From: Geitlerinema sp. PCC 9228
GTDB taxonomy: Bacteria; Cyanobacteriota; Cyanobacteriia; Cyanobacteriales; PCC-9228
Assembly (NCBI RefSeq): GCF_001870905.1
Contig: NZ_LNDC01000195.1
Coordinates: forward strand, 1-35,999
Length of the DNA: 35,999 nucleotides
Direction: 5' to 3'
Both the position numbers and the translations under genes were made by a program. Positions 4,191 to 32,408 of the stretch are shown here, piece after piece; the first letter of the stretch is position 1; every line of letters begins with the position of its first letter. Below the pieces are notes generated by a model that was given only the letters and a program-made list of their open reading frames with translations, ran no database searches and was not told the DNA's origin.

Positions 4191-4529
4191 TCAGCCATCT
4201 TCCTCTGAGGAAGAAAAATTGGATTCGTTAAAAATAGCAGATATATCTCGATTTAGAGATTCTCGAATCATTCGATCGGCTTTTTCGGGATTTTGATAGA
4301 TTGACTCTAGCAGCTGAAACGGTTCCATGCCGCAAGCGCGCGCATAAAATTCAATTTCTCTCATAATTCGATTTTCCGACTGCCTTAGATACATGCTCAG
4401 ACAATGCTTCGCTTGTATGGCTGGGTTGCGATTGGTTCGAAAAAAGGCTAAAGCATGCAGCAAACGGTCTTCGTAAGGTGCAAGGGGACCGATATGTAGT
4501 TCGTTGGAATTGGGATGGGATGGTTCCAT
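4191..4529 (-). CDS. Hypothetical small protein, downstream of dndC-dndD and methyltransferase
   Basis: A 112-residue protein that I cannot assign to a named family. It looks mostly alpha-helical, with a central basic and aromatic stretch (LSMYLRQSENRIMREIEFY), a later FQLLESIYQNPEKA segment, and an acidic serine-rich end (SSSEEDG). There is no signal peptide or membrane segment. It starts 49 bases after the methyltransferase stop on the same strand, so it probably shares its transcript. Its size is near that of DndE (about 110-130 residues), but I do not see the DndE-type sequence pattern, so I do not call it dndE. Coding is supported by the compact open frame and non-random composition. Confidence 0.6.
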   Translation of the reverse strand: MEPSHPNSNELHIGPLAPYEDRLLHALAFFRTNRNPAIQAKHCLSMYLRQSENRIMREIEFYARACGMEPFQLLESIYQNPEKADRMIRESLNRDISAIFNESNFSSSEEDG

Positions 4530-4578
4530 GTTGGTACTGAAATATAGTGCTTCTGCGAAATTTTCCCGTACAGCCAGT

Positions 4579-5454
4579 CTATTCCTGTTTTTGATAAATT
4601 TGCAAAAGGATATCGGCGGGGGCTAGTATAGAGAGTATCGGATAGACGAAAAGAATAGCAAGATATAGAAAAGCTGCTGTCAGGCGCGACGTTCGTTTGT
4701 CCATACGCAATCGCGACCAAAGTCCTGATAAATGCAGTGTAGGCAAACTTTGACTGTGCAATAAGTAAAATCCATGTTGGGTAGCTAGTTTGTGTAAATT
4801 GCTAGCGTTAAAATAAAATAAGTGCGGACTGGGATAATCTTTTTGCCATAGGCGATGTAATGGTTTTTTGATTCCCAATTTGGCTAGCAAGCTAGCAAGG
4901 CGGTAGAAAAATCCGTTGCTGTTGGGAAGGTTAAGAATCAGAAAGCCACCGGGAATGAGGAATTGGTGGCATTGTTTTAAAACTTGGTGGCAGTCGGGAA
5001 AATGTTCAAAGGCGTCGTTAAAGGCAATGGCGTGAAATTTTTCCTCTTCTCCCAGACAGTCGGGAAAATAGCCAAGACGAATATCCCATCCTTGCTGTTT
5101 TCCCAGATTGGCAACTTCAGTTTCTGGTTCGACGCCGGTGGCAATCGCACCTTTGGCGGTGGCAATTTCTAAAAACCAACCGTAGGCACAACCCACATCG
5201 AGAATTTTTTTGTTGCGAATCGGTAAAAAGCGATTCAGGATATCGAATATGGTTCGGAAGTTGGCCTGTCGTAGGTATTTTAAGGCGTCGCGACGTTGGT
5301 TTTCTTGTAAAAGGTCGCTGTTGTTAGAAGTTAGGTCGGCGCTGGGGGAAAGGGAAGATACCCACAAATCGCAACTCGTACAATGTTGCAGCCAAGGTTC
5401 TAGCTGCGATTTCATGCTATGTTGGCAGATAGGACAGGATGGGCGTGTTTCCAT
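4579..5454 (-). CDS. Class I SAM-dependent methyltransferase with N-terminal zinc ribbon
   Basis: A 291-residue protein. Residues about 7-30 carry a CPIC...CTSC zinc-ribbon pattern. The S-adenosylmethionine fold starts with the glycine-rich motif I KKILDVGCAYGWFLE near residue 83. It continues with an acidic strand end (TGVEPE), a FNDAFEHFPD motif IV region and LIPGGFLILNLPN. The last 35 residues contain a hydrophobic segment (FLYLAILFVYPILSIL), unusual for a soluble methyltransferase and suggesting membrane attachment. It starts 9 bases after the dndD stop, so it is probably co-transcribed with dndC and dndD. Similar zinc-ribbon methyltransferases act on sugars or small molecules, so a direct DNA-modification role is not shown. 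The substrate is unknown. Confidence 0.88.
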   Translation of the reverse strand: METRPSCPICQHSMKSQLEPWLQHCTSCDLWVSSLSPSADLTSNNSDLLQENQRRDALKYLRQANFRTIFDILNRFLPIRNKKILDVGCAYGWFLEIATAKGAIATGVEPETEVANLGKQQGWDIRLGYFPDCLGEEEKFHAIAFNDAFEHFPDCHQVLKQCHQFLIPGGFLILNLPNSNGFFYRLASLLAKLGIKKPLHRLWQKDYPSPHLFYFNASNLHKLATQHGFYLLHSQSLPTLHLSGLWSRLRMDKRTSRLTAAFLYLAILFVYPILSILAPADILLQIYQKQE

Positions 5455-5463
5455 GCTGCGTTT

Positions 5464-7446
5464 CTAGAAAAAATAACCGGGTTTGACGGTTGTTTGGCGC
5501 TGTTTGGCATTGTACTCTAGAAGGTATTCGTGCGCGATCGCTTTTTGCTGGCGTAGGGTATTTACTTCTGTTTCGGCAATTTCGGTATCGGTAGACAGGA
5601 GAATGACCTGGTGGCTGGCGGCGGGAAAATAGCGTTCCACCAAGTTTTGCCGGTGGGAAGAATCCAAACGACCCAGTGGCGTATCGATGGCGATGGGAAG
5701 TTGGTGACCGGAAACTCTCGCCAATCCCCACAAAAAGGATATGGCAAGGAGTTGTTTTTCTCCGGCGGAGAGGCGATGTTTGGGAACGGGGTTGCCTTGC
5801 GAGTCGTAGAGAGACAGGCTGTAGGTTTGGGTATCAATAACGACGCGGTGAACCAGGTCGGATTTATGCAGCAGGTAGCGGAAACATTCGGTGACTTCGG
5901 TTTCCAGTTTGTTAAGTTTTTTTAAGGTGAGGCGTTCTTTAAACCGTTGCAGGGTTTGTTTGACTCTGGCGGAAGATTGGATAATGTGGTTGGCGTTTTC
6001 CCGGTCGATATATTCTTCACTGTAGCGTTGTAGCTGTTTTTTGAGTTTGGCGATCGCGTCGGCAATTTCTTGGCAGCGGTGTTCTGCATCTTGGTATTGA
6101 TGTTCCGCTTGTTTTAGTTTAGCACTGGCATCGCTAACGGCATCCACCAGTTGTTGGTAAGTTTCTGGGGAGGCGGCGGCGGCTAGCTGTCGTTCTTTGG
6201 CGGTTTTTTGCTGTTCCAGGTCGGTTAATTTTTGCAGGCATTCCTGCGCGCGTTGTTGCAGGGAGGGTAGTTGGTAATCCAGTAAATTGCCGATTTGTTC
6301 GATGGCTGTGGTATCGGCATGCAGCCAAATTTCTTTGTCGGGGTCGTTTTCGATATCCAACTGGTGGCGATCGCTTTCGAGAAATTTTTGGATGGCGAGT
6401 AAGTTGGATTCGGATACATCGAGGGTTTGTAAATAGTCTAACAGACGTTGGTCCCTAGAATGTAAAATATCTCGGGCGATGGTATATTCTTGCCACTGGT
6501 TTTCTTGTTCTCCTTGATGTTTGGCATCTTGTAATAGGGGAGATATCAATTTTAAAGGCAAGGAATCGGCAGCAATTTCCCGCAAGCGATCGCGTTGCGT
6601 TTGCATTTCGCTTTCTATGTTTTGAATTTCCGCTTCTAGTTGGTTGCGCTGACCGGCAATTTCCCCGCCTTCTTTCATTAATTTTTCTTTGGTTGCTTGA
6701 TGGTGCGATCGCGCTTTTTCTAAGGCTTGTTGGCAGGTCTTGACTTCTTGTTCGGCGGCTTCGTATTCGGATTGTTTGGTTTGGAGATTTTGTTCTAGGT
6801 CTTCTAAATTGGTCAGTTGCTGTTTGTTCGCCAGTTCTTTGCGCTTGCGGCTAACGAGAACATCCAAATCTACTGCCAAACGATCGGCTAGTTCCAATCC
6901 TAACAAAGATTGAATGGCATCAAAGACCAAAGGCGGTGGTTCGTCTTGTTCTGCCAGTTCCTTGACCTGTTCGCCGTCAAATAGAAATAAATTGGAAATT
7001 CCCAAAGGCAGTAAAGTTTCGATATACTCGTCCCAGGTTTCCGTTAGTCCTTCATCTTTCCAATCGTCTTCTAAAATTCCCAACTGGTCTTTGCCATCTT
7101 TGGGATTTTTTCCCCAAGTACGAACGATGCGATGTTCGACAAAGCGATCGCCAACCACATGTTCAAATGCTAACTCAATGCGCGTTTTTTCAGTTGGCGG
7201 TGTTTGATTGTGAACGCATTGCGATAGAAAATCGGAATAGCTTAAATTTCCCCGCGTAGAACACTGCGCGCGCGGTCCGTACAATGCCAGGCGAATAGCA
7301 TCCATTAGAGTTGTTTTCCCACCCCCATTCATACCGCCAAATAAAACAATCGGCGGCGGAGTTTTATCATCTTCCGGACGTAAATTTATTGTTTGGTAGC
7401 CGAGATAGGGACCAAAATTGTTCAGAACGAGTTCGGTAAATCGCAC
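5464..7446 (-). CDS. dndD: DndD, SMC-like ATPase of DNA phosphorothioation
   Basis: A 660-residue SMC/Rad50-type ATPase. The N-terminus MRFTELVLNNFGPY precedes a Walker A GGMNGGGKTT at residues 37-46. Long coiled coils run through about 180-530 (repeated QLEAEIQNIESEMQ-like heptads). An ABC signature LSAGEKQLL is near 560 and a Walker B IAIDTPLGRLD near 586. These features and the gene order identify DndD, the ATPase that works with DndC and DndE when sulfur replaces a non-bridging phosphate oxygen in DNA. The start is GTG with no clear ribosome-binding site, 72 bases below dndC. Several HIP1 octamers lie inside the gene, so it does not look recently acquired. Confidence 0.92.
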   Translation of the reverse strand: MRFTELVLNNFGPYLGYQTINLRPEDDKTPPPIVLFGGMNGGGKTTLMDAIRLALYGPRAQCSTRGNLSYSDFLSQCVHNQTPPTEKTRIELAFEHVVGDRFVEHRIVRTWGKNPKDGKDQLGILEDDWKDEGLTETWDEYIETLLPLGISNLFLFDGEQVKELAEQDEPPPLVFDAIQSLLGLELADRLAVDLDVLVSRKRKELANKQQLTNLEDLEQNLQTKQSEYEAAEQEVKTCQQALEKARSHHQATKEKLMKEGGEIAGQRNQLEAEIQNIESEMQTQRDRLREIAADSLPLKLISPLLQDAKHQGEQENQWQEYTIARDILHSRDQRLLDYLQTLDVSESNLLAIQKFLESDRHQLDIENDPDKEIWLHADTTAIEQIGNLLDYQLPSLQQRAQECLQKLTDLEQQKTAKERQLAAAASPETYQQLVDAVSDASAKLKQAEHQYQDAEHRCQEIADAIAKLKKQLQRYSEEYIDRENANHIIQSSARVKQTLQRFKERLTLKKLNKLETEVTECFRYLLHKSDLVHRVVIDTQTYSLSLYDSQGNPVPKHRLSAGEKQLLAISFLWGLARVSGHQLPIAIDTPLGRLDSSHRQNLVERYFPAASHQVILLSTDTEIAETEVNTLRQQKAIAHEYLLEYNAKQRQTTVKPGYFF

Positions 7447-7518
7447 GGTTGTTTTTTACTAAGAATAGGGGACTTTTGAGAAAGTGAAAGTGGGAGGGGA
7501 AAAAGAGAACAGTTGGAT

Positions 7519-9087
7519 TTAATCGACAGTGCTAGTATTGGTAGTGGCAGTACCAAATTTCATATCGGCCCAACTTAATTGTTTCACAGTCGATACATCA
7601 CCGCGATCGGCAGCTTCTTTTAAATCGCGTTTCTTGTAGGCATTGTTTAACGCTTCTGTTTGAGAACGGGAACTGGTTTCAAAGCATTTTTCCAAATCTT
7701 CATAAATGCCAACGCGACGTGCCATGGTATGATATTGGCGTTCGGTATCCAATAATTTTGCCATTAGTTCTAAATGCATGGCATCGCCATCGGTGACTTC
7801 TTCTAAAATTTGCCACTCATCTATTCCCAATAAATGGCTGCCAACACTAGGACGCGGATCGAAAAAGGGTTCTCCGGTAGCTTCTTGATAAATTTGTGGC
7901 AAGCGATCGTCAAATTCGTGTTTTTCTTCCAGCCAGATACGACGAATTTCGCTTAATTCTTCGGGTTGGATGAGGGTAATATTTTTCATATCGTCTGGCG
8001 CATTTTCCCGAACTTGGGTTTGCGCTTCCAGTACACGTCGCAACCAATATTCTCGCCATTCTTTGGTATAAGGACCGGGAATAGGAACCACTTGGGTTTC
8101 GCCACCTTGGTTGCGTTCAAATAGTTGCACTTTGCCAAAAATTCTGCGAAAATCTCGGCGATCGCGATCGTCTTGTACGTCTAATTCATTGCGAATATCT
8201 AATAGAGGCTGCATCCATTCTTTTTCCTCGTCGTTTTGGATCATGGCCTCCATGGATTTGTCTTTATTAACCATCGTACAGACCCAGCAGCCAAATCGAG
8301 AATCGCCGCAACTGGGAGTAGAAGTATCTACAACCAAAGGACATTCATTATCGGCTGTTGCTCCCCGATACATGCCAAACAAATCTTTGTTACTATGTCC
8401 CCAAGGATTGGGATATTGGTTCAAGTAAAGCCATACTTCATCAGTGCGCCAATCTTCAATGGGTAAGTAAAATAAGGAATTGGGATGGTCGGGGTTTTGA
8501 TCTAATCTATCGCGTACTCGCCAATGGCGATGTTTTGCCATTGTGCTTGCCCGTTTTGTACTTTCGGCTTTGCGAGTTCCTAAAACTAAAATTATTTCCC
8601 CATTTTCCCGAATTGCTCCGCGAATAAAATCATTAGTAGGTTGAATTTTCATTCGTTCGGTACACCATCTAAATCCTTGTCTAGGTGCTGGATATCCTTT
8701 ACCAATTAAATTGACCCAAAATGTATCTTTAATTGCTGGTGTTGTTAAATTGGGTTCGATAGGTAAATTCTGTTCTTGGGCAGCAGTTTTCATTCGTTCT
8801 AATGATTTTTGAACCCAAGCAGATACAAGAGGATTTTCTACAAAGGTATCGTTCGTTAAAACGTAAATTTGTTTCGTTCTTTTTTCTTCTGGTAAGCTAG
8901 CGATCGCATTCCAAACCAACTGCAAAACTGTAGAACTATCTTTACCACCGGAATAACCAACAATCCAGGGAATATCATCCTGACAGTAGAGTTGTTGGAT
9001 TTCCGAGGTTAACGCTTCAATATCTTCTACCAATTCAGCGACCGTACGCTGTTGTGGTTGCTGTTGGGATTGTTGGCTTGTATTCAT
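7519..9087 (-). CDS. dndC: DndC, PAPS-reductase-like sulfurtransferase of DNA phosphorothioation
   Basis: A 522-residue protein with an ATP pyrophosphatase P-loop SGGKDSS at residues 46-52, as in PAPS reductases and DndC. Cys142 (in FRWCTERMK) and the cluster Cys249, Cys260, Cys267 and Cys270 (PSCGDSRFGCWVC) are likely iron-sulfur ligands, as known for DndC. The role is activation of the DNA backbone or transfer of sulfur during phosphorothioate formation. The cysteine desulfurase that supplies sulfur (DndA or IscS) is not in this window. ATG at 9087 follows a GGGGAGG site. It is the first gene of the leftward cluster and is divergent from dndB. The N-terminus is Gln-rich and probably disordered. 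Confidence 0.94.
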   Translation of the reverse strand: MNTSQQSQQQPQQRTVAELVEDIEALTSEIQQLYCQDDIPWIVGYSGGKDSSTVLQLVWNAIASLPEEKRTKQIYVLTNDTFVENPLVSAWVQKSLERMKTAAQEQNLPIEPNLTTPAIKDTFWVNLIGKGYPAPRQGFRWCTERMKIQPTNDFIRGAIRENGEIILVLGTRKAESTKRASTMAKHRHWRVRDRLDQNPDHPNSLFYLPIEDWRTDEVWLYLNQYPNPWGHSNKDLFGMYRGATADNECPLVVDTSTPSCGDSRFGCWVCTMVNKDKSMEAMIQNDEEKEWMQPLLDIRNELDVQDDRDRRDFRRIFGKVQLFERNQGGETQVVPIPGPYTKEWREYWLRRVLEAQTQVRENAPDDMKNITLIQPEELSEIRRIWLEEKHEFDDRLPQIYQEATGEPFFDPRPSVGSHLLGIDEWQILEEVTDGDAMHLELMAKLLDTERQYHTMARRVGIYEDLEKCFETSSRSQTEALNNAYKKRDLKEAADRGDVSTVKQLSWADMKFGTATTNTSTVD

Positions 9088-9220
9088 GTTTGCCTCCCCC
9101 TGAGACTTCGTATCTGGCGACCAACCAGGCTGGGGTTGACGGGACCATCAGTTTTTAAAAACTCGCCTTCATAGCTTAAACTTTTATCCAGGACGAAGGC
9201 AAGCCAATAGGAAAGCAGAA
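9088..9220. promoter_or_regulatory. Divergent dndC/dndB control region with palindrome
   Basis: The 133-base spacer must hold promoters for both dndC (-) and dndB (+). It contains a perfect 14-base palindrome AGTTTTTAAAAACT at 9150-9163 and a GCCTTC/GAAGGC inverted pair at 9165-9170 and 9195-9200, either of which could be an operator. DndB is known in some bacteria as a transcriptional regulator of dnd genes, so autoregulation here is plausible but not shown. I could not place -35/-10 boxes with confidence. Confidence 0.4.
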
Positions 9221-10771
9221 TTGAAACTAGACAAGCAACAGCGACAAACCCTGACCCAACTTCTCGACTTTTATCTCAACAGCGATGACCGGCTTTTGGT
9301 GCAAAAAACGGAAATGGGAGAAACCGCAGCCTTTGTGAGTTCGGTCACCTTACAGTGGGTTCATCGCCACATTGGCTTTGCTTCCGAATTGCCTTTATTT
9401 CAACAACAGCTAGACCCGCAAACCCAAGATGTGGAACGCAGCGCGCAAACCATCAACGAAATTTTGCAACGTCCTCTCGATTGGTCGCGCCAAGCGCCGC
9501 TAGCGCAATATATTGCGATTCGGGAAAATCATAAATTTCCGGCATTGCTGGTGGTGGTGTCGCCAGATTGGGTAGATGACCCAGATGCGCCGCAGTGGGA
9601 TCAAAACCAACGCGCCAAACAATCAGCTGTGGATTTTACGGCATTGGATGCGAAGAAAACGGTGGGAGTTTTAGAGATTTCCCCATCTAGTTCCATGTTT
9701 GCTTTAGACGGACAACATCGTCTGATGGGAATCCAAGGATTGATGGAATTGTTGGAAACTGGCAGGTTGCCACAGTATAGCAAAGTCAAAAAACCGGTTG
9801 GCAGCGAAATTACCCTTGAAGATTTGGTGGGAGAGTATCATGTCACTCGCCGCCAGCTGCAAAATGTAGCTACAGAAAAAATTGGGATTGAATTTCTGCC
9901 AGCAGTAGCAAAAGGGGAAACTCGCGACGAAGCTAGGCAACGAATTCGGTCGATTTTTGTCCATGCCAATTTAATGGCGGTGAAGCTAAGTAAAGGACAG
10001 CTAGCGTTGCTGGATGAAGATGATGGGTTTTCTATTGTTAGCCGTCAGATTGCAGTGACCCATCCCTTACTGCGGGAGGAAATAGGACGTAATCCGCGAA
10101 TGAATTGGGATAGCGCTACAGTGGCTGCCAAATCGACGGTTTTAACTACACTACAGGCACTGAAGGATATGGTGCAAGTATATTTAGAACCTAAGTTTCT
10201 CCACTGGCATTCTCCCAAACCAGGATTGATTCCCTTGCGTCCAGACACGCAAGAATTACAGGAAGGGATGGAAGCGGTAGCGCAACTGTTCGATTATCTC
10301 ATGGAGTTGCCAAGCTATCAGAAATTGCAGCAAGGTTGGGAAACGCCGACGTTGCGTCGTTTTTATTTTGAAAAGCCAGGCGGCGAGGGCAACATTTTGT
10401 TTCGACCTGTGGGTCAGGTGGCGGTAGCGAAGGCTTTGGGAAATTTGGTTTATCGGCAACAGTTTTCTTTGGAGGAGATTTTGGCGAAATTGCGCCGCTA
10501 CGACGAGAAGGGGGGATTCAGCCGTATAGAAAATCCTGCTTCTGTGTGGTACGGTGTTTTATACGACCCTAACAAAGGAAGAATTCGAGTGGCAGGACGG
10601 GAGTTGGCTAGCAAACTCCTGATGTATATTTTAGGGGGCGTTCGCGATCGCTTAGAGAAAGCAGAAATCCGGACGGCTTTGGCAAAAGCGAGAACTTTTG
10701 AAGATAAAACCATTAATTTTGCCGGACGTTGGGTGCATCCTAGAGAAGTAGGATTGCCGAAAAAAATGTAG
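9221..10771 (+). CDS. dndB: DndB, DGQHR-domain protein of the phosphorothioation locus
   Basis: A 516-residue protein whose hallmark DGQHR motif lies at residues 163-167 (FALDGQHRLMG), the signature of DndB and its relatives. DndB is the regulatory member of the system and reduces or controls modification frequency and dnd expression. The start is TTG at 9221, preceded by an AGGAAAG site; no in-frame ATG gives a better fit. At 516 residues it is longer than the roughly 350-380 residues of enterobacterial DndB. The extra part is C-terminal and includes basic stretches. It is divergent from dndC-dndD across 133 bases, whereas many dnd loci have dndBCDE in one direction. Confidence 0.87.
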   Translation: MKLDKQQRQTLTQLLDFYLNSDDRLLVQKTEMGETAAFVSSVTLQWVHRHIGFASELPLFQQQLDPQTQDVERSAQTINEILQRPLDWSRQAPLAQYIAIRENHKFPALLVVVSPDWVDDPDAPQWDQNQRAKQSAVDFTALDAKKTVGVLEISPSSSMFALDGQHRLMGIQGLMELLETGRLPQYSKVKKPVGSEITLEDLVGEYHVTRRQLQNVATEKIGIEFLPAVAKGETRDEARQRIRSIFVHANLMAVKLSKGQLALLDEDDGFSIVSRQIAVTHPLLREEIGRNPRMNWDSATVAAKSTVLTTLQALKDMVQVYLEPKFLHWHSPKPGLIPLRPDTQELQEGMEAVAQLFDYLMELPSYQKLQQGWETPTLRRFYFEKPGGEGNILFRPVGQVAVAKALGNLVYRQQFSLEEILAKLRRYDEKGGFSRIENPASVWYGVLYDPNKGRIRVAGRELASKLLMYILGGVRDRLEKAEIRTALAKARTFEDKTINFAGRWVHPREVGLPKKM

Positions 10772-17875: not shown

Positions 17876-20596
17876 ATGACAACTGCACCCGGCGATAGGT
17901 CTACGTGGGACACGAACAACCAAATCGGTAGTGCCAGCCCAAACACCGCTTCTCATAGCGATCGCACTGGCACCCCCCGCACTGCCCACAGCAGTGCTAT
18001 TGAAGCTTCCGATCGCAGCATTATCGACATGACCCCAACCAACCCCAATAGCGAGTTTTCTCCTGGTTCGGTGCCCCCACCCAAAGAATCCAGCAGCAGT
18101 GCCCTCACCACCACCAAAGGCACCTTTTCCGACTTCTTGGCACCCTTGACCCAAGATACCTTCAAACAAGTGGTCAGCGACGTTGAGGAAAAACTCAAAG
18201 TCGTCAATCAAACCCTATCCATGCTGGATAACGTTCTGGGCAATCAAGGGTTTGACGAAATCCTCCAGGAAATGCTGCGCTCCATTACCCTCAAAACTGG
18301 AGAACTGCTGGGTGCCGATCGCACCACCATTTGGCTGTTGGATGAAGACCGCGACGAACTGTGGTCAATTGTCGCCAAAGGAGAAAACGGCAAACCCCTA
18401 GAACTGCGAATTCCATCCGACAAGGGCATATCCGGAGAAGTCGCCACCTTCAAGAAAACCGTCAACATTCCCTACGACTTTTACGACGATCCGCGCTCGG
18501 AAGCTGCCAAGGGATTCGACAAGAAAAACCACTACCGTACCTACACCATGCTCACCCTTCCCCTGCTCAACGATAACGGGGATTTGGTAGCCGTAGTGCA
18601 GCTGATTAACAAAATCAAAAAACTGGACCATCCCAACCAAGTCCCCCTCTCGGAGCGGGTAGACGTACAAGGATTCACCCAAGAAGACGAAAAACTCTTT
18701 GAAGAATTTGCCCCCTCCATTCGGCTGATACTCGAATCTTCCCGCTCTTTCTACAAAGCCATCCAACGCCAGCGAGCTGCCGAAGCCTTAATGGCTGCCA
18801 TTCAATCCTTGAGCAAAAGCAGCCTCGACCTGCAAGAAACCCTCAAAAAAGTGATGGAAGAAGCCAGAAAGCTCATGAATGCAGCTCGCAGCACCCTCTG
18901 GCTCATCGACGAAGAAAAAAACGAACTGTGGACCCAAATCCAACTGGATGACGGTACCCCCAAAGAACTCCGAATTCCCCGCAATGCCGGTTTTGCCGGT
19001 CAAGTAGCCGCATCCGAAGAACCGTTGATTATTCCCTTCGACCTATACGACCATCCCGGCTCCCAAACCGCCAAACAAACCGACCAAGAAACTGGTTTTC
19101 GCACCTGCAGCCTGCTGTGCATGCCTGTCTTCAACGGCGACGGCGAACTCATTGGCGTTACCCAATTGGTAAACAAAATTAAACCCGGCGACCATCCCCC
19201 CTACGACCCCAAAGATTGGCCGCAAGCTCCGGAACGTTGGAAAGCCAGCTTCAACAAATCCGACATGGAGTTTATGAAAGCCTTTAACATCCAAGCCGGG
19301 GTGGCTTTGCAAAACGCCAAACTCTTCGCCACCGTCAAACAGCAGGAACAAATGCAGCGGGATATCCTGCGCAGTTTGACCGATGGGGTGATTTCTACCG
19401 ACGACGACGGCGATGTGATTGCTGCCAATGAAAGTGCCAAACAGTTGCTCGGATATGAAGAAAGCGATCGCATTGACGGGTATCCCATCAGCAACTTACT
19501 GAAAATTCAAGAAGGGGATTTTGCCAACTGGCTCTCAGCCGCCTTGCACCCCAAAGACGATAAATCCCGCCAGCAATACTATCCCGAACAAACCCTGCTG
19601 GCACACAATTCCAAGGCCCAACACAGCATTAACCTATCTATTAATTCCATCGCCGATGCCAGCGATCCGGATAACGTCTACGGTGCCTTGGTGGTCATGG
19701 AAGACATCAGCGACGAAAAACGCCTCAAGAGCACTCTCTACCGCTACATGACCCAAGATGTCGCCGAAACCCTCCTCTCCAGCGGCGAACTCAAACTCGG
19801 CGGGGAACGACGGGAAGTATCGGTGCTGTTTTCCGATATCCGCAGCTACACCACCCTCACCGAAGGCATGCAAGCAGAAGAAGTGGTGGACATGCTCAAC
19901 GAATATTTTGAATCCATGGTCGATGCGGTGCTCGCCAACAAAGGTACTTTGGATAAATATATTGGCGATGCGATTATGGCGGTCTTTGGGTCGCCGGTTC
20001 CCTTTGACGACCACGAATGGATGGCCGTGCAAACCGCCGTGGAAATGCGCCATCGCTTGGTGAAGTTCAATCAAAAGCAACAGGAAAACGGCAAGCAACC
20101 TATTCGCATTGGTATTGGCATTCACTCCGACGAAGTGGTCAGCGGCAACATTGGTTCCAGCAAACGCATGGAACTGACCTCCATCGGCGATGGCGTGAAC
20201 TTGGCTTCCCGGTTGGAAGGGGCGAGCAAGCACTACGGCTGCGATATTATTATCAGCGAGAAAACGTACCAACCCTGTGCCGATAAAATTTACGTGCGGG
20301 AGCTGGATTATATTACTGTGAAAGGCAGGCACGAACCAGTGACAATTTACGAAGTGGTGGGCTTGCGATCGCAAACCCTCTCCGACGAAACCATGCGATT
20401 GGTGGATGCCTACCAACGCGGTCGGGATTTTTATCTCAACCGGCAGTTTGCCCGCGCCATGTCAGAATTTGGAACGGTCTTGGAACTGGATAAAAACAAC
20501 AAAGCTGCCCAACTGCACTTGCAACGCTGCCAGCATTTCCTGCAAGAACCTCCGCCGGAAGATTGGGATGGCGTCTGGCGGCTGACGGAAAAATAA
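17876..20596 (+). CDS. GAF-GAF-PAS class III adenylate cyclase (CyaB-like)
   Basis: A 906-residue cytosolic cyclase laid out like Anabaena CyaB1/CyaB2. It has a disordered N-terminus (1-90), GAF (about 115-290), GAF (about 300-485), PAS (about 490-615), a class III cyclase domain (about 645-835) and a TPR-like tail. Catalytic residues are complete: metal Asp654 (LFSDIRSY) and Asp698 (KYIGDAIM), adenine-specifying Lys694 and Thr768, and transition-state Asn775 and Arg779 (GDGVNLASRLE). GAF1 keeps the full NKFDE cyclic-nucleotide motif (NK245-246, F267-x3-DE). In GAF2 the last residue is Met464, so GAF1 is the better cAMP-binding candidate. A degenerate paralogue follows after 38 bases. Confidence 0.93.
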   Translation: MTTAPGDRSTWDTNNQIGSASPNTASHSDRTGTPRTAHSSAIEASDRSIIDMTPTNPNSEFSPGSVPPPKESSSSALTTTKGTFSDFLAPLTQDTFKQVVSDVEEKLKVVNQTLSMLDNVLGNQGFDEILQEMLRSITLKTGELLGADRTTIWLLDEDRDELWSIVAKGENGKPLELRIPSDKGISGEVATFKKTVNIPYDFYDDPRSEAAKGFDKKNHYRTYTMLTLPLLNDNGDLVAVVQLINKIKKLDHPNQVPLSERVDVQGFTQEDEKLFEEFAPSIRLILESSRSFYKAIQRQRAAEALMAAIQSLSKSSLDLQETLKKVMEEARKLMNAARSTLWLIDEEKNELWTQIQLDDGTPKELRIPRNAGFAGQVAASEEPLIIPFDLYDHPGSQTAKQTDQETGFRTCSLLCMPVFNGDGELIGVTQLVNKIKPGDHPPYDPKDWPQAPERWKASFNKSDMEFMKAFNIQAGVALQNAKLFATVKQQEQMQRDILRSLTDGVISTDDDGDVIAANESAKQLLGYEESDRIDGYPISNLLKIQEGDFANWLSAALHPKDDKSRQQYYPEQTLLAHNSKAQHSINLSINSIADASDPDNVYGALVVMEDISDEKRLKSTLYRYMTQDVAETLLSSGELKLGGERREVSVLFSDIRSYTTLTEGMQAEEVVDMLNEYFESMVDAVLANKGTLDKYIGDAIMAVFGSPVPFDDHEWMAVQTAVEMRHRLVKFNQKQQENGKQPIRIGIGIHSDEVVSGNIGSSKRMELTSIGDGVNLASRLEGASKHYGCDIIISEKTYQPCADKIYVRELDYITVKGRHEPVTIYEVVGLRSQTLSDETMRLVDAYQRGRDFYLNRQFARAMSEFGTVLELDKNNKAAQLHLQRCQHFLQEPPPEDWDGVWRLTEK

Positions 20597-20634
20597 ATCA
20601 GCATTTTGTTTGTTGTGTATGGAAGTGGACCCCC

Positions 20635-21522
20635 ATGGAATTGAATCATTACCCAAAAAAAGAAACCGACCGCGGCGTGGTTGCGCCAGAAACAGCAGCT
20701 CGCTTGCAGCTGACGGTGAACCAAAAACCCAGTTCGATTTTGTTTTGCGATGTTTCCAGCTACCCCATCTTAAAAGAGAAATTGGGGGAAGCAGATGTGA
20801 TGGGATTGCTTGCCCATTACTTTGAAGAACTGGCAGAGGTGGCTTTTGAGTACAAACAAACCTTTGCCAACGGTGTGGAATGTTTGTGTTTGGGCAATCG
20901 CACGATTTTGATTTTTGGCATGCCCGAAAGTTTGGAAGACCATGCCTGGCATGCAGTGAGGGCAGGCAACCATTTGCAACAAAAAGTGGCTCAGTTGAAC
21001 GAACGCCAGCGCCGACAAAATCAACCGGAAGTGCAAATTGGTATGGGGATTCACTCGGAACGGCTGATTCGCCAAACCCAATCCAGCCGCAGCTGGATGA
21101 AATTGACGGCTATTGGCGATGGGGTGAATATTAGCCATTTTTTAGAAAAGATTAGCAAACAGTACGGTTGCGGGATGGTGCTCAGTACGGCAACTTACAA
21201 GCTATGTAGCGATCGCATTCAAACCCGGGAGTTGGATTTGATTCGCCTGCCGGGCAACGAGGAGGCAATGACCATTTACGAGTTTTTGGGATTTGCCGGC
21301 GACTCCCTTTCCCCCGAGCGCCAAAAAGTTTTGGGTCACTATCAAAAAGGGCGGGAATATTACCTCAACCGCCAATTTGCGATCGCCATGGGGGAATTTG
21401 CCACCGTCTTGGAACTAGACAGCCAAGACAAAGCTGCCGCCACCCAACTGGCGAGATGCCAGCAACTGCTGCGGGAACCCCCCGCCGAAAACTGGGATGG
21501 TGCTTGGGCGGTGGGCAGCTAA
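20635..21522 (+). CDS. Degenerate class III cyclase-like protein, tandem paralogue
   Basis: A 295-residue protein that aligns throughout with the cyclase domain plus TPR-like tail of the gene just upstream, for example YLNRQFAIAMGEFATVLELD and EPPAENWDGAW at the end. The first metal Asp is kept (ILFCDVSSY), as are Thr and Asn (KLTAIGDGVN). The second metal Asp has become Asn (CLGNRTILIFG), the substrate Lys is Leu in my alignment, and the transition-state Arg is replaced (VNISHFLEK). It is therefore probably inactive and lacks GAF and PAS domains. It could act as a dimerisation partner or binding protein; that is inference. I chose ATG 20635 over the 20563 in-frame ATG, which lies inside the upstream gene. 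Confidence 0.87.
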   Translation: MELNHYPKKETDRGVVAPETAARLQLTVNQKPSSILFCDVSSYPILKEKLGEADVMGLLAHYFEELAEVAFEYKQTFANGVECLCLGNRTILIFGMPESLEDHAWHAVRAGNHLQQKVAQLNERQRRQNQPEVQIGMGIHSERLIRQTQSSRSWMKLTAIGDGVNISHFLEKISKQYGCGMVLSTATYKLCSDRIQTRELDLIRLPGNEEAMTIYEFLGFAGDSLSPERQKVLGHYQKGREYYLNRQFAIAMGEFATVLELDSQDKAAATQLARCQQLLREPPAENWDGAWAVGS

Positions 21523-21586
21523 ATGGCCTGCAACCGACGCGATCGTGTAGACTGGATGGGGTACGAATGGCGTTATCGCAGAAATT

Positions 21587-22597
21587 ATGGGTAAACAGCG
21601 CGTTCTTTCTGGCGTTCAACCGACCGGAAATTTACATTTAGGCAACTATCTGGGAGCTATCCGCAACTGGGTAGAACGACAGTACGAATACGAAAATTTC
21701 TTTTGCGTGGTGGATTTGCACGCCATCACGGTGCCCCACGACCCAGCTCAACTCGCCGCCGATACCTACACCATTGCGGCACTGTACCTGGCATGCGGCA
21801 TCGATTTGGAAAATTCTACCATTTTCGTACAATCCCATATCCCCGCCCACAGCGAGCTGACCTGGCTGCTGAACTGCCTGACTCCCCTGGCGTGGCTGGA
21901 CGATATGGTGCAGTATAAAGAGAAAGCCCTCAAACAAGGGGAAAATGTTAATGCCGGGTTGTTGGATTATCCCGTGCTGATGGCGGCGGATATTTTGCTG
22001 TACGATGCCGATAAGGTACCGGTGGGGGAAGACCAAAAGCAGCATTTGGAACTGACCCGCGATATTGCTGCCCGTTTGAATTACCTATACGGCAACGGCG
22101 AGAATTCGGTATTGAAACTGCCAGAACCGGATATTCGCCAAGTGGGGGCACGGGTGATGAGTCTCACCGATGGCACGAAGAAAATGTCCAAATCTGAGCC
22201 GGCAGAAGGCAGTCGGATTAATTTGCTCGATTCTCCCGAGGCGATCCAGCGGAAAATCAAACGCTGCAAAACCGACCCCACCCGGGGATTGTGGTTTGAC
22301 GACCCCGAACGCCCGGAATGTCACAATTTGCTGAGTTTGTACATGCTACTGTCGGGCAAAGATAAGGAAACGGTGGCGGCTGAATGCCAGGATATGGGTT
22401 GGGGGCAGTTTAAGCCTTTGCTAGCGGAAACTACGGTGGAAGCACTCAAACCCATTCAGCAAAAGTACCAGGAAATTGTTCGCGATCGCGGATATTTGGA
22501 ATCGGTGTTGCGTCAAGGCAGGGAAAAAGCCGCTGCCATTGCCGAGCAAACCCTGCAACGGGTACGTGATGCTTTGGGATTCTCCCGTCCCCTATGA
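21587..22597 (+). CDS. trpS: Tryptophanyl-tRNA synthetase
   Basis: A 336-residue class I aminoacyl-tRNA synthetase that charges tRNA(Trp). The N-terminal RVLSGVQPTGNLHLGNYLGA contains the HIGH-type motif (HLGN), and KKMSKSEP is the KMSKS loop. VVDLHAITVPHDP, PVLMAADILLYDADKVPVGEDQKQHLE and the C-terminal anticodon-binding helices are typical of bacterial TrpRS, and the length is normal. It begins 64 bases after the degenerate cyclase gene, on the same strand, with ATG at 21587. A housekeeping role independent of the signalling neighbours is most likely. Confidence 0.97.
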   Translation: MGKQRVLSGVQPTGNLHLGNYLGAIRNWVERQYEYENFFCVVDLHAITVPHDPAQLAADTYTIAALYLACGIDLENSTIFVQSHIPAHSELTWLLNCLTPLAWLDDMVQYKEKALKQGENVNAGLLDYPVLMAADILLYDADKVPVGEDQKQHLELTRDIAARLNYLYGNGENSVLKLPEPDIRQVGARVMSLTDGTKKMSKSEPAEGSRINLLDSPEAIQRKIKRCKTDPTRGLWFDDPERPECHNLLSLYMLLSGKDKETVAAECQDMGWGQFKPLLAETTVEALKPIQQKYQEIVRDRGYLESVLRQGREKAAAIAEQTLQRVRDALGFSRPL

Positions 22598-22978
22598 AAG
22601 GTTTCTTGCCCACAAATTGGTCGTTTTGGCAACCCTTTCCGGGTTGCCCTGGAGATGCCCGCAGCTTGTTGCCAATCAATGGGGATTTGTTGACATTTGA
22701 TGATAATTTTTTTTTATATCATCTTCCTCGGAGGAATTTCGTGCTAGCAATAGACGATCGCGATGGGGTGATGGTGCGGCAGATTTCCCCATTTCCGGAG
22801 GCAAGAGGCAGGTTTTGGCGATCGCGTTTTTCCCCAGCCGGCTGAGCGTAGCGATCGCCAAAATAGCATTTAGGGGCGCATATCGGGATTGAGATTTTTA
22901 AACTATGCTTTTTTCTGCACCTTTTTCCTAGATAATCAAGAGTGTACTTTTGTGTAGTAAATAATAAGGAGTATCGCT
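22598..22978. other. Spacer between trpS and metF with two hairpins
   Basis: About 380 bases without a supported gene. An open frame overlaps the trpS stop as ATGA (22594-22845), but its composition (Pro/Phe/Arg) and lack of any recognisable motif make it unconvincing. The spacer holds a hairpin GATGATA/TATCATC around a T-rich loop (22699-22723) and a large HIP1-based inverted repeat (22813-22863), which may end the trpS transcript. The metF promoter should lie at about 22865-22955; I could not assign its boxes. Confidence 0.5.
22813..22863. repeat. Inverted repeat built on two extended HIP1 sites
   Basis: TTTTGGCGATCGC (22813-22825) and GCGATCGCCAAAA (22851-22863) form a perfect 13-bp stem around a 25-base loop. 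The stem is GC-rich at the loop side and AT-rich at the base, ending A4/T4. It could work as a bidirectional terminator behind trpS, or be a fortuitous pairing of two HIP1 octamers. Confidence 0.65.
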
Positions 22979-23902
22979 ATTACTCTTACACAAAATCCCA
23001 CCGTTTGTACCCCTCTTTCTGGCTTCCGCGAAGCCGTGAAATCGGGGAAATTCCTCGTAACCGCTGAGATTACGCCCCCGAAAGGAGGCGATCCCAGCCA
23101 TACCCTAGAACTGGCACAGAACCTGAAAAATCGCGTTCATGCCGTTAATATTACCGATGGCAGTCGCGCCGTCATGCGCATGTCGCCCCTGGCGGTTTCT
23201 GCCATTTTATTGCAATACGGTATCGAACCCGTTTGTCAGTTTGCCTGCCGCGATCGCAATCGCATTGGCTTGCAAGCCGACCTGACCGGTGCCTATGCAT
23301 TGGGGATTCGCAATATTTTGGCTCTCACTGGCGACCCAGTCAAAGCCGGCGACCACCCCAAAGCCAAAGCCGTATTTGACATGGAATCGGTGCGTTTGCT
23401 GCACTTAATCGGCAAACTCAACCGCGGCGTCGATTTCCACAAAAATCCGATGCCAGATGGTGCAACCGACTTGTTTCCTGGTGCTGCCGTCGATCCCGAA
23501 TCTCGGAGTTGGTCCGGTTTGCAGCGTCGTTTTGAACGCAAACTAGCGGCCGGCGCTCAATTTTTCCAAAGTCAGCTTATTTCTGATTTCGATCGTCTAG
23601 ATAAATTCATGAATCAAATCGCCGCCGGCTGCAACAAGCCAATTTTGGCGGGTATCTTTCTCTTAAAATCTGCTAAAAATGCGCGTTTTATCAATAAAAT
23701 GGTACCGGGCGTTCATATCAGTGAAGAAACCATAGAGCGTTTGGAAAAAGCCTCCGAACCCTTACAAGAAGGCATCAACATTGCCGCCGAACAAGTTCAA
23801 ATGGCGCGGCAACTGTGCCACGGAGTGCACATTATGGCAGTGAAGCGAGAAGAACTCATCCCGCAAATTTTAGACCGCGCCGGTGTGCAGGCGGTGAAGT
23901 AG
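22979..23902 (+). CDS. metF: Methylenetetrahydrofolate reductase, apparent ATT start
   Basis: A 307-residue TIM-barrel reductase making 5-methyltetrahydrofolate for methionine synthesis. FLVTAEITPPKGGDP, HAVNITDGSRAVMRMSPLA, ACRDRNRIGLQADLTGAYALG and ILALTGDPVKAGDHPKAK are typical of the cyanobacterial family. The first standard in-frame start is GTG at 23036, which has no ribosome-binding site and would remove the SGFREAV segment that normally leads into the first strand. The frame stays open upstream to a TAA at 22958. AAGGAG at 22966-22971 sits seven bases before an in-frame ATT at 22979. I therefore take ATT as the likely start (an inference); with GTG the protein has 288 residues. Confidence 0.85.
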   Translation: MTLTQNPTVCTPLSGFREAVKSGKFLVTAEITPPKGGDPSHTLELAQNLKNRVHAVNITDGSRAVMRMSPLAVSAILLQYGIEPVCQFACRDRNRIGLQADLTGAYALGIRNILALTGDPVKAGDHPKAKAVFDMESVRLLHLIGKLNRGVDFHKNPMPDGATDLFPGAAVDPESRSWSGLQRRFERKLAAGAQFFQSQLISDFDRLDKFMNQIAAGCNKPILAGIFLLKSAKNARFINKMVPGVHISEETIERLEKASEPLQEGINIAAEQVQMARQLCHGVHIMAVKREELIPQILDRAGVQAVK

Positions 23903-23965
23903 GTTCGGTTTTGGGGGGCTTGGTTTTGGGGGCGTACCGATGCCTCCATGCCCCCATGCCCAACG

Positions 23966-24577
23966 CTACCCCTCACCGCGAATTCGCTTGCGCAACAACA
24001 ACCGCCGCGGTGGCTGAAAACACAAAAGGCGGGGCGAAAAATCCATACCTGCTAATTGATAGCCAATTTTCTCATATAGGGCACGAGCGCTTTGATTTTC
24101 TTCGAGAACGTGCAAGTAAATATCTGTAAATCCCCACCGCCAGGCCACGCGATCGCAAGCCAGCAATAGCTGACTAGCCACCCCGCAACGGCGAAACGTC
24201 GGTTTGACCGCCAAATTGGAAACGTATAAATAGGGGCCGCCGCGACTTTCCCAAGGGGAAGGCGTACGTTGGCTCATTTCCACCGTACCGGCAATTTGTT
24301 CCGGACCCCACTTCCCCACCCCCCCGCTACGATAGTGGGTACGAAGGGTGGCTGCCAAACAGACATAGTAGGGGGTATGGCCGCGCAAGCGCTGGCGCAA
24401 ATCCTCGTAAATGCCCAACCGTACCAAGGGATAAATCAGCCCCCAAACCCCCGTTTGAGAATAAAAACCCACCGTCAGAATATCCGCTAGGGTGGGCGCA
24501 TCTTGAAGGGAAGCGGAACGCACCAAAACGTGGGAATTCCCTAGCCGAACCGTGGTATTTTCAGAAAAAGTTTGCAT
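23966..24577 (-). CDS. GNAT family N-acetyltransferase
   Basis: A 203-residue GNAT-fold protein. The acetyl-CoA-binding motif A is visible in SNLAVKPTFRRCGVASQLL (R-R-C-G-V-A), followed by DIYLHVLEENQSARALYEKIGY, the usual motif B with its Asn and Tyr. The N-terminus VLVRSASLQDAPTLADIL is the first strand and helix. ATG at 24577 is preferred over the upstream in-frame ATG at 24709, because the added 44 residues are Cys/Arg/His-rich with no family character. The substrate is unknown. The gene is convergent with metF, with 63 bases between the stops. The C-terminus is strongly basic. Confidence 0.88.
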   Translation of the reverse strand: MQTFSENTTVRLGNSHVLVRSASLQDAPTLADILTVGFYSQTGVWGLIYPLVRLGIYEDLRQRLRGHTPYYVCLAATLRTHYRSGGVGKWGPEQIAGTVEMSQRTPSPWESRGGPYLYVSNLAVKPTFRRCGVASQLLLACDRVAWRWGFTDIYLHVLEENQSARALYEKIGYQLAGMDFSPRLLCFQPPRRLLLRKRIRGEG

Positions 24578-24709
24578 GGCGGTGCCTAACAATCCCCAAC
24601 ATAGAACAAAAGCACAGAACCAATGGCAGTGGCGCGATACCGTTATCCGTTCGTGGCACACCAAACGCCGCAGCCGTAGAGCGAACAGACAAAATACCAA
24701 CCCCCGCAC

Positions 24710-25363
24710 AATGGGTTCTTTTGGTGTGGTTTGGGGAATCCTTTCCAGCCTTGGTTCCCATATTCCCCATCCATGCCTGTATTAGGATGATAGCAGCAGA
24801 CCTTTGCGATCGGGGGCCCAAAGACCACCAAATTTTTCAGCGATCGCCGTAGAAATTCCTTTTCCCCATCGCCATCGTGGCTGTCTGTGCCTATCCATCC
24901 GAACCCCAAAAACAGACAACCCCTGATGGTTCGATCCAAATTTTTCCACTCAGGCCATGAATTCTTGCCCCACCAGAAAAAAATCAAAATACAATAAACA
25001 ATAAGGATCGGGGTGCATGCGTGGAAAGTTCCCACCCAACACCAATCTATATCTGGAGAAAAAATCACCCAACTTTTGCCATTTCCTCCCCTCCCACCCC
25101 CAAAACTTTTCCCTCGCGATCGCAAGCAGCATCGTAGGCCATGGTGCTTTTGGCACCATAGCAAGGTAAATTGGTCTTATAGGGAAACCATTTCCATTTC
25201 CCATATGGGTGCGTGGCGCGAACAGCTACTGTGGAACCAGCAATCAATCGGGGAGACCATAAGCAACTGGTACGGTAGGAGCCATCAAACCAATCTCCCC
25301 CGTACCTGCCCCATAGCATAAATTGTGGGTCGTATTTCCCGGCAAGCAGCAGGAGAGCGGTGC
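24710..25363. other. Long spacer before the cyaC-like gene, no supported gene
   Basis: About 650 bases with only weak open frames on either strand (for example 24643-25164 minus and 25018-25170 plus), none with recognisable motifs. A TACAAT box occurs near 24990 and a hairpin ATGGTGC/GCACCAT lies at 25141-25159. The promoter and 5' leader of the hybrid cyclase gene and the promoter of the GNAT gene should be here. The length leaves room for a non-coding RNA, but I cannot identify one. Confidence 0.5.
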
Positions 25364-28300
25364 ATGAGCGTAGAAGCAACCAAATTCCCCAAAATCCTGA
25401 TTGTGGATGACGAACCCGATCATCTAGATTTACTGTACCGCACGTTCTATCAAGAATACGAAGTCTTGCAAGCTCGTAGTGCCGCCTCCGCGCTAGAAAT
25501 TTTAGCGTCGCGGGATGATATTGCCGTCATCATCACCGACCAACGCATGCCTCAGATGAGCGGCACGGAATTTCTCAGCATTACCGCCACCCAATACCCG
25601 GATGTCATTCGGATTATCATCACCGCCTACAGCGACGTGGAAGACCTCGTGGAGGCCATCAACAGCGGGCAAGTTTTTAAATACGTCACCAAACCCTGGA
25701 ACGCCCAGGAACTAAAACAAGCGGTACGCCAAGCCGTAGAAACTCACAGCCTCCTGAAAAGGCGGACCCGGGAACTGCGGCGCACTCTGCGGCAAGAATC
25801 CCTCCTCAACGCCGTTACCAACACCATTCGCAGCGCCCTCAGCTACCGACAAATCCTACAAACCATTGTGGAAACCGTGGGGCAAATGTTTGAGGTGAGC
25901 TACTGCTTGCTGCGGCCGGTCTCCGACGAACAGGGTCACGAAGACCCCCTAATTTACACCTCCCGCAACTCCCACGCCCACAACCGCCACTCAAACGGCA
26001 GCAACAGCTATTCCCCCATTCCCATGGTTCCCGCCAGCCAAGCAGAACCGAAAACCGACGCCCAGAGCGAGCAACTTTTGAAAACCGTTTGGGAAACCCA
26101 AGATGTGATTGTTGCCAACGACGCCAGCAGCGACGAACGCATCCAAGCTTCCCCCGAACGCGCCCAAGCGTACCGAGACAACGACATTCGCTCCAGTTTG
26201 ATTGTTCCCCTGTGCAGCCAGCAATACGGCAGACCCCAGGATTGGTCGGTACTGGCGGTGTTAGCCTTGCACCAATGCGGGGAAGAACGGGTCTGGCAAG
26301 ACGACGAAATTCAGTTGGTGGTTATGGTGGCCGACCAGGCAGCTTTAACCCTCTCCCAAGCGCGCGCCTACGAACAGGTGAGGGCACTGGCACAGCGGGA
26401 AGCCCTCATCAATAGCATTACCAGTGCCATTCGCTCTAGCTTGGAACCGAGGGAAATTTTTGCGGCGATTACCGAGCAGTTGGGGCAGGCATTGCAGGTG
26501 GATGGCTGTGCCCTTTCCCTGTGGACTGCCGAAGACGAGTACGTGCAGTGCGTGGGTCTGTACGAACGGCAGCAAACCGAAACTTCGGACGAACACCAAC
26601 CTATCCGCGAAACGGGAGAAAACACCACCGCCGGTTCCCCAGGTCGCGCTCAAGGTTTGCCCACTTCGCGGGTACCCATTACCGGCAATACCCTGTTGCA
26701 ACAGTTATTGCAAACGCAAAAGCCAGTCGCCATCAACGATATTAACCACTATTCCGAAGAGGAAGTGTTTGACGCGCCGTTCCGGGTCTCGGCGAAAGCG
26801 TTGTTGGTGGTGCCGTTGCTGGTAGACGGTCAGATTATTGGTAGTATTTCCCTGCGTCAAGCCGACCGCAGCCGCCATTGGGTGGCTTCGGAAATCGACC
26901 TGGCGGAAGCTGTAGCCGCGCAAGCTGCGATCGCGGTACAACACGCCCGTTTGTATCAAAAAACCAAGCAACAAGCGGAACGATTGCTGGCTTTAGACCG
27001 ACAAAAAACAGAATTTTTCCAAAATATTTCCCACGAATTCCGCACGCCGCTAACCTTGATGATGGGTCCGTTGGAGGCGGCTGCCAATAGCGAAACTGGC
27101 TTACCTCCAGAACAAGCTGCGATCGCTTTGCGCAATTCCCGCCGTCTGCTGCGCATGGTCAACCAGCTACTGGACTTACATAGATTAGATGCGGGTAAAA
27201 TGCAGCCCCGTTTTCGTCCCTGTAGATTGGAAAATCTCCTGAGGCAAATTATCGATGCTTTCCATCCGTACTGCGAACGCAAAGGCTTAAACCTAAAAGC
27301 CAACCTACAAGAATGCCCCTCTGTCTACATTGACTTAGAAAAATTTGATAAAGTTCTATACAATCTCTTTTCCAACGCCATGAAATTCACTGCTTCGGGC
27401 GGAGAAATCGCCGTTGGTGCCAAACATGTGGGCGGCTACTGCTTGATTCAAATTGCCGATACGGGCATTGGCATTCCCCCCGACCAAATCCCCTACCTGT
27501 TCGACCGCTTTCGCCAGGGTGACAGTGCCACCGACCGGGCTTACGAAGGTAGCGGTTTGGGCTTGGCGGTGGCTAAAGAATTGGTGGAATTGCACGGCGG
27601 GCAAATTACTGTGGATTCGGTGGAAGGCGAAGGCAGTACTTTCACCATTTGGTTGCCCACTGGTTGCGCCCATTTGCCCCCAGAACAAGTGATTGAAGTG
27701 CCGGCGGAATCGGAAATTGCTGGGGCAGACGTAGAACTGGCGGATTTGGAAACGGAATTGCAAGACAGTGCCACCACCACCGATGCCAGTACTTCCCAAA
27801 CCACCGAAATTCCCAATTGGGAAATTGCCCCAGAACTGGAGGACCCGGAACAGAAAAAAATCTTGTTTGTGGATGATAATGCCGATTTGCGTACCTATGT
27901 GGCCTCGATTCTGAAAGGGGAAGGCTATCAAGTGCTGCTGGCGCGCAATGGCGCGGAAGGCATCCAGGTTACCCACAACTACCATCCAGATTTGATTGTG
28001 GCGGATTTGATGATGCCGGTGGTGTCGGGGTTGGATATGATTTCCATGTTGCGGGAGGAAGAACGGTTTAAGGGAATTCCCATTGTGCTGCTGACGGCGA
28101 AGGTGAACGAAGATACCCGCATTGAAGGGGTGGAAAAAGGGGCGGATGCTTACTTGTCGAAACCGTTTAACGATCGCGAGTTGCTGGCGGAGGTGCGCAA
28201 TTTGCTATCGTTGAAGGAGAACGAACGTCGGGTGGCACAGCTAAATCGCTACCTCACGGAATCGGTGTTGCGACGGTTTTTGCCCCCTTCCATGGTGGAA

Positions 28301-32331: not shown

Positions 32332-32408
32332 AGAATCATGATATAGTTTAACGAATTTTTTAGGATGTGCCATCATTCGTCTTTGAATCTTATCGTTTGT
32401 GGAATCTT

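Follow-up and report, generated by a model that had tools for sequence, protein, structure and literature searches.

Phosphorothioation of DNA is described as a pathway in which a cysteine desulfurase passes sulfur to DndC, the sulfur reaches the DNA backbone via DndD and DndE, and DndB restrains the system (PMC8569181, PMC10853773). IscS is able to substitute for DndA (PMC3519819; PMC10853773). Here we analyze the dnd genes of Geitlerinema sp. PCC 9228 in the window, the first 35,999 nucleotides of contig NZ_LNDC01000195.1 (contig C195); the genome has 4.8 Mb in 223 contigs, with completeness 100 and contamination 0.33%. The window very probably carries the dndB-like, dndC and dndD genes of a phosphorothioate modification system that is complete and present in single copy, with dndE on another contig. 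The genes are scattered, and relatives in the order, which we infer to be Cyanobacteriales, mostly keep or lose them jointly.

The closest described systems are the cyanobacterial dndBCDE genes (Jian et al. 2021, PMC8569181), which likewise lack dndFGH beside the modification genes and are most frequent in Nostocales/Cyanobacteriales. That paper described the dnd operons of cyanobacteria as disordered and put forward vertical descent for those of Cyanobacteriales; clusters were scored as present only if the genes were adjacent, and its available parts do not mention dndE persisting elsewhere or the joint retention of dndC, dndD and dndE. Microcoleus and Microcystis likewise have dnd genes divided within one genome, with 40 kb or more between the parts (PMC8546630); the split in Microcoleus separates dndBC from dndDE, whereas in the window genome dndBCD is split from dndE. 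A 2024 reappraisal (PMC10853773) presents DndD and DndE as a linked pair, and they are apart in the window genome, which has a DndE like that of its Clade 1 (4-residue loop) together with a DndD without the CxC hook. The stem "cyanobacteri" does not occur in the main text of the reappraisal.

Dnd genes in the window and the unlinked dndE

An earlier note, made from the sequence alone, had described five open reading frames as a phosphorothioation locus with a divergent dndB and no visible dndE. All five reading frames are present (Table 1), and its DndC and DndD identities are firm, both proteins scoring far above the curated cut-offs and keeping the catalytic motifs. DndC matched TIGR03183 at 700 bits (cut-off 290) and the PADLOC DndC model at 661 bits, with SGGKDS at residue 46, cysteines at 249, 260, 267 and 270, and GCWVC. 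DndD matched TIGR03185 at 691 bits (cut-off 246), with Walker A at residue 38, the LSAGE signature at 559 and PIAIDTP (Walker B-like) at 584. A CxC zinc-hook is absent from the window DndD and from all of the 41 DndD proteins inspected. The top PADLOC model for the window DndD is labelled PbeC (984 bits vs 810 for the DndD model). Lacking the hook, the window DndD does not fit a CxC ABC-ATPase system of the PbeABCD type; its gene adjoins dndC, and the PbeC label may be misleading for cyanobacterial DndD.

The name dndB for the divergent gene held in part. Its product passes Pfam DndB PF14072 (52.7 bits, cut-off 29.1) and DGQHR TIGR03187 (153.8 bits, cut-off 58.9), with the DGQHR motif at residue 163, but it fails the NCBI DndB equivalog TIGR03233 (18.6 bits, well under the cut-off of 328), therefore only the name "DndB-like" is safe. 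The region between this gene and dndC is likely a promoter region common to both; weak inverted repeats and nothing stronger were detected in it.

Table 1. Features of the dnd locus, the unlinked dndE of the same genome (G000), and full-length DndE found without DndD in other genomes
Feature	Position	Strand	Basis or remark
112-amino-acid protein, family unassigned by profiles	4191-4529	-	no Pfam, PADLOC or NCBIfam match
Class I methyltransferase, zinc-ribbon-like N-terminal cysteines	4579-5454	-	Methyltransf_23, 78.5 bits
dndD, ABC-type ATPase	5464-7446	-	TIGR03185
dndC, PP-loop sulfurtransferase	7519-9087	-	TIGR03183 and PADLOC
Divergent intergenic region dndC/dndB-like	9088-9220, 133 bp	.	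computed gap
dndB-like, DGQHR-domain protein	9221-10771	+	divergent from dndC; listed start TTG
dndE	G000:C103:57174-57503 (L094 8121-8522)	-	outside the window; PF08870
Full-length DndE, no DndD at cut-off, outside the order	G165:C2:4400-4732; G204:C5:3719370-3719699		

The absence of dndE is true of the locus and not of the genome. The PF08870 search of the whole genome gave exactly one match (136 bits), on contig C103, and profiles and fold agree that this single gene is a standard dndE, bearing out the suggestion in the earlier note that it may lie elsewhere. The protein of 133 amino acids scores 118.9 bits with TIGR03184 (cut-off 71.9). In its predicted model (mean predicted local distance difference test score 88.9) a 4-residue loop joins the first helix to the second, and its 17 best Foldseek matches are all solved DndE chains, led by 7x4e (E 8e-6, template modelling scores 0.74/0.85) and then 4lrv, with 5wtu also matched. 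It has the same fold as the Escherichia coli B7A DndE (PDB 4lrv, 5wtu) and 10635-DndE (7x4e); sequence similarity is detectable to 7x4e and 5wtu, and identity to the solved DndE proteins is 26-31% in structural alignments with E up to 0.001. Among 45 aligned genomes this DndE keeps all but 2 of the positions conserved at 90% or more. A foreign dndE is unsupported, as the protein groups within the order at 52-72% identity.

The dndE gene adjoins a glycosyltransferase gene and, beyond a small open reading frame, a polysaccharide flippase gene. The nearer end of C103 is 30.6 kb away from dndE, and dndD is 5.5 kb from the start of its own contig; therefore, whatever the arrangement of the contigs, at least 36 kb separate the two genes, which do not form the linked dndD-dndE pair. 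Divergent from dndE is an open reading frame, also of 112 amino acids (L094 8625-8963), that is weakly ParB/nucleoid-occlusion-like (TIGR04285 19.7 bits, below the cut-off; no Pfam match). DndB has been placed in the ParB superfamily too, and a link to this reading frame is conceivable.

Presence and scattering of dnd genes in the order

We searched 60 genomes of the order, our own included. DndC was detected in 48 of them (E 1e-80 or better), DndD in 50 and DndE in 48; at most 16 candidates per genome were scored for DndD, so that DndD could be missed. All three genes are present in 45 genomes, none in 9 and a partial set in 6. We judge four of the partial sets to be due to contig ends or incomplete assembly: G002 ends directly after dndD, in G004 dndD is close to a contig end, in G018 it is cut by one, and G026 is 75% complete. 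The scattered dnd genes are thus mostly kept or lost together in the order.

Linkage is far less constant. The dndC gene is apart from dndD in 11 of 47 genomes, some of them through contig breaks. In 25 of 48 genomes dndD and dndE share a strand and lie within 1.2 kb of each other; by raw count the other 23 have them apart. Dropping G023, where both genes are near contig ends, leaves 47 decidable genomes, 22 of them with the two genes separated, including cases in closed chromosomes (G049 is counted as linked despite its truncated dndD). In eight of these 22 more than 200 kb of one contig lies between the genes, and in 12 they are on different contigs with other genes at the expected site of the partner on at least one side. 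The 22 also include G058, with dndE between dndC and dndD on the opposite strand, and G038, with dndE 20 kb away. Four genomes (G008, G012, G037 and G040) have dndC, dndD and dndE at three distant places of one contig. These counts contradict, for this order, the published statement that DndD and DndE are always linked.

These relatives also bear on whether the separation seen here could be an artefact, produced by fragmentation or mixing in the assembly. The split of the genome into 223 contigs speaks for it; the distance of at least 36 kb whichever way the contigs join, the contamination of 0.33%, the richness of both regions in HIP1 octamers and the eight relatives separated by more than 200 kb on single contigs speak against it, and we regard an artefact as extremely improbable.

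A second survey covered 80 named cyanobacterial dndC loci, the best 80 of 584 matches by DndC and hence the closest relatives. The top relatives of the window DndC among them are cyanobacterial (Fischerella, Nostoc, Gloeocapsopsis and others). The divergent dndB-like gene was found in 67 of 73 testable loci, dndD downstream in 68 of 78, and dndE downstream in 44 of 66, where a locus is testable if the gene was found or the flank is at least 4.6 kb (dndB), 2.5 kb (dndD) or 1.5 kb (dndE), which biases the counts to "found". All 22 named genomes with a dndE-less dndC locus have one DndE outside the fetched stretch; for L147 (Fischerella muscicola) dndE is seemingly about 10 kb past dndD on the same contig. 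Anabaena sp. 4-3 and Calothrix brevissima NIES-22 are cultured cyanobacteria with separated dnd genes. Some of the named loci seem to come from genomes of the 60-genome set (L194 and G034 have identical dndE coordinates), and the two surveys are not independent.

Outside the order the two genes were found together. In a class-wide sample of 155 genomes (completeness 98 or more, order members included), all 17 genomes from outside the order with both genes have dndD and dndE adjacent, 24 to 799 bp apart. Fisher's test of 22/47 vs 0/17 genomes with the genes apart gave p 2.3e-4, relatedness being ignored, and the same-contig cases alone (10/35 vs 0/17) gave p 0.02.

A second, more divergent DndD (513 bits) was detected in G017 (G017:C75:4156-6147), beside the regular copy in that genome.

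Descent of the dnd genes

Trees of RpoB (56 genomes) and of DndC were built by quick searches. The linked or apart state of dndD and dndE requires 14 changes on the RpoB tree, at least 9 of them forced by well-supported branches, and 12 on the DndC tree, and dnd presence or absence requires 5 on the RpoB tree. Genes next to dndE are mainly common within one genus (G036/G059, G008/G037, G018/G045, G033/G056); the exceptions are G023 and G043, with two genes beside dndE in common and with differing family codes, and G040, with one transporter-like gene beside dndE in common with G018 and G045. A single ancient relocation of dndE is unsupported, given the differing neighbourhoods and the changes on the RpoB tree.

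Pairwise distances were compared for 41 genomes, including seven with dndD away from dndC; G041, G049 and G058 were left out, as were G005 and G025 (no RpoB match). Distances follow those of RpoB with r 0.72 for DndD and r 0.68 for DndE. DndD and DndE distances correlate with each other at r 0.79 in the 21 genomes with separated genes and at r 0.62 in the 20 with adjacent genes. These protein comparisons fit a mainly vertical descent of the dnd genes.

The long residence proposed from HIP1 octamers is favored as well. The window contains 49 of them vs 0.43 expected, with nine intragenic ones in the dnd genes (dndD 6, dndC 2, dndB-like 1), and each of dndC, dndD and dndE is widespread among relatives, at 48 to 50 of the 60 genomes searched. 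The G+C content weighs against it, being slightly low over 4-10 kb (0.45 vs 0.47-0.54 elsewhere in the window).

Genes downstream of dndD

The computed gap confirms that the methyltransferase gene starts 9 bp past dndD; the open reading frame of the 112-amino-acid protein follows on the same strand after 49 bp. The methyltransferase matches a UbiG-like profile below its cut-off. Relatives of the methyltransferase (phmmer, E up to 1e-4) were found at 0 of the 80 named dndC loci, and so were relatives of the 112-amino-acid protein; a single 30-bit methyltransferase match was detected in L136, a dndC locus outside the named set. The five-gene neighbourhood, whose conservation the earlier note had proposed to check, was rejected, neither downstream gene being conserved at the dndC loci of relatives.

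The family of the 112-amino-acid protein occurs in 14 of the 60 genomes, our own included. Its 14 places in the 13 other genomes are always off the dndC contig or more than 200 kb from dndC, no conserved neighbours were seen among its genomes, and five of the 14 genomes (G021, G028, G029, G048 and G052) have no intact dnd set. Comparison of the family with the DndE profile by hhalign gave a probability of 0.1%, and Foldseek with the predicted structure gave no match with E below 3. With VIA-align, model residues from about 7 to 55 have ArtA, PutA, CopASO, ORF56 and Arc as the top five matches at Z 5.7 to 4.7, values that often arise by chance. DndE chains are absent from the structural matches listed, which by itself proves nothing. 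Some of the five are, we assume, ribbon-helix-helix proteins, and this weak resemblance of the model gives a hint of DNA binding on which we do not rely.

That this protein functionally replaces DndE, as the earlier note had considered, is hardly credible. It is small and encoded on the same strand after dndD, and its N-terminal part resembles single ribbon-helix-helix proteins, DndE consisting of two such units (PMC10853773). Against a replacement stand the standard DndE encoded in the same genome and the downstream genes that are not conserved in relatives, both of which the earlier note had named as refuting outcomes. The negative hhalign and Foldseek comparisons with chance-like Z values also speak against it, as do the places of the protein in other genomes, away from dndC, and the five of its 14 genomes without an intact dnd set. 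As a need, replacement of DndE is already refuted.

It is also very unlikely, if a little less so, that the methyltransferase and the 112-amino-acid protein form a lineage-specific extension of the Dnd system, such as an added activity that modifies bases. Their close same-strand packing (gaps of 9 and 49 bp) would agree with this. Such neighbours are found at none of the 80 named loci, and the Methyltransf_23 and UbiG-like families would suggest methylation of small molecules over that of DNA. Our genome is the only member of its family and genus in the 60-genome set, which therefore covers no genus-restricted link to these neighbours. From the sequence comparisons, both genes look like accidental neighbours outside the Dnd system.

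Sulfur supply and restriction partners

For dndA, which the earlier note had given as absent, no protein exceeds the DndA cut-off (TIGR03235, 480), but the genome encodes three cysteine desulfurases, the best just below it with 445 bits. At least one cysteine desulfurase of this kind is present in all 60 genomes. A desulfurase copy that reaches about 390-460 bits with DndA is lacking from the dnd-less genomes G009, G021, G029 and G048 and present in the dnd-less G006, G035, G052, G030 and G053; a partial link of this desulfurase to dnd is possible.

The reading of a modification-only system stood in part. TIGR03238 (dnd_assoc_3), which we take to be one of three restriction-module families, had no match in our genome, the other two families not having been searched, and unlinked nucleases are possible. 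No protein of the 60 genomes exceeds the TIGR03238 cut-off, and one 21-bit match was detected in G039. The dndFGH genes were reported as absent in Nostocales (PMC8569181), and a type III restriction enzyme was reported beside dnd in Microcoleus (PMC8546630). The system may plausibly serve some purpose besides classical restriction.

Discussion

We suggest that the dnd set of Geitlerinema sp. PCC 9228 is complete-looking, with scattered genes. As expected from the protein families, a resident cysteine desulfurase would supply DndC with sulfur, which DndC together with the DndD-DndE core would put into the DNA backbone at chosen sites, and the DndB-like protein would restrain the system. The DndD ATPase and DndE, a double ribbon-helix-helix protein, would form the DNA-scanning core, assembling in trans despite the distant genes; DndE meeting DndD in trans is the only new step required.

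Several observations weigh against this reading. At least one of dndC, dndD and dndE is absent, as found, in 6 of the 51 genomes that have any of them. In G049 (G049:C85:1-9000, L236) dndD is reduced to its last ~146 residues, followed by dndE, and this is not at a contig end; G028 (G028:C6:239000-253000, L093) has a truncated dndC of 335 amino acids and a small dndD fragment, with no dndE. These are possibly dnd sets caught in decay. Our DndE is slightly more divergent than others (mean identity 66% vs 73% over all pairs). DndC distances track RpoB less well (r 0.50, the same 41 genomes), and the DndC tree groups genomes across family codes (G010 with G041, G038 with G019), therefore some exchange took place within the order too. 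Four genomes from outside the order have DndE and no DndD at the cut-off, with at most seven candidates scored per genome, so that a DndD may have been missed; two of them are listed in Table 1, and G128 and G210 have a partial DndE. Joint retention therefore does not extend beyond the order on present data. The working of the scattered genes is itself argued from sequence.

The same truncated genes support the opposite view, that the locus is a decaying remnant whose system stopped once dndE separated. The dndC and dndD remnants in G028, the shortened dndD beside dndE in G049, and the loss of all three genes in some lineages (the five presence or absence changes on the RpoB tree) agree with it, and a possible functional effect of split clusters was suggested for toxic Microcoleus (PMC8546630). 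In the window, on the other side, the reading frames are intact and the catalytic motifs present, the unlinked DndE has lost hardly any conserved position, and genomes with separated genes mostly retain or lack the whole set, including the four genomes with three distant places. We consider decay unlikely, and a retained, scattered system to be the better explanation.

How such a system came to be scattered can be suggested. Phosphorothioation may be a near-core chromosomal trait in the order, in which the pressure to keep the genes together, useful for cassette transfer, would have weakened, and the dnd genes would then have drifted apart many times. We infer such relaxed selection with one observation to the contrary: the other flanking genes of the window never stay beside dnd in other loci, therefore gene order is loose in general here, which weighs against this account. 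A broader proposal is tentative, and we hold it as possible rather than probable: in Cyanobacteriales phosphorothioation might once have been a mobile defence cassette and have become a resident, near-universal chromosomal trait, with a trans-assembled complex and no known restriction partner, whose main role would be epigenetic or protective over restriction, the scattering being the mark of this change.

The literature searched was open-licence, and separated dndD and dndE may have appeared in print earlier. Where annotation demands adjacency of the dnd genes, many cyanobacteria will be labelled "incomplete" despite a full set. The natural separation allows dndE to be removed alone, with no polar effects on dndC and dndD, and such strains make the role of phosphorothioation testable in cells without reported DndFGH.

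Elsewhere in the window, the stretch 17876-28933 includes genes for signalling proteins whose domains are adenylate/guanylate cyclase, GAF, PAS and response-regulator. Further on, a gene for a class-II glutamine amidotransferase (32367-33194) precedes one for an FGE-sulfatase, the N-terminus of which is weakly DinB-like (33315-34409). This pair is reminiscent of EgtC and EgtB, which we take to be proteins of ergothioneine synthesis.

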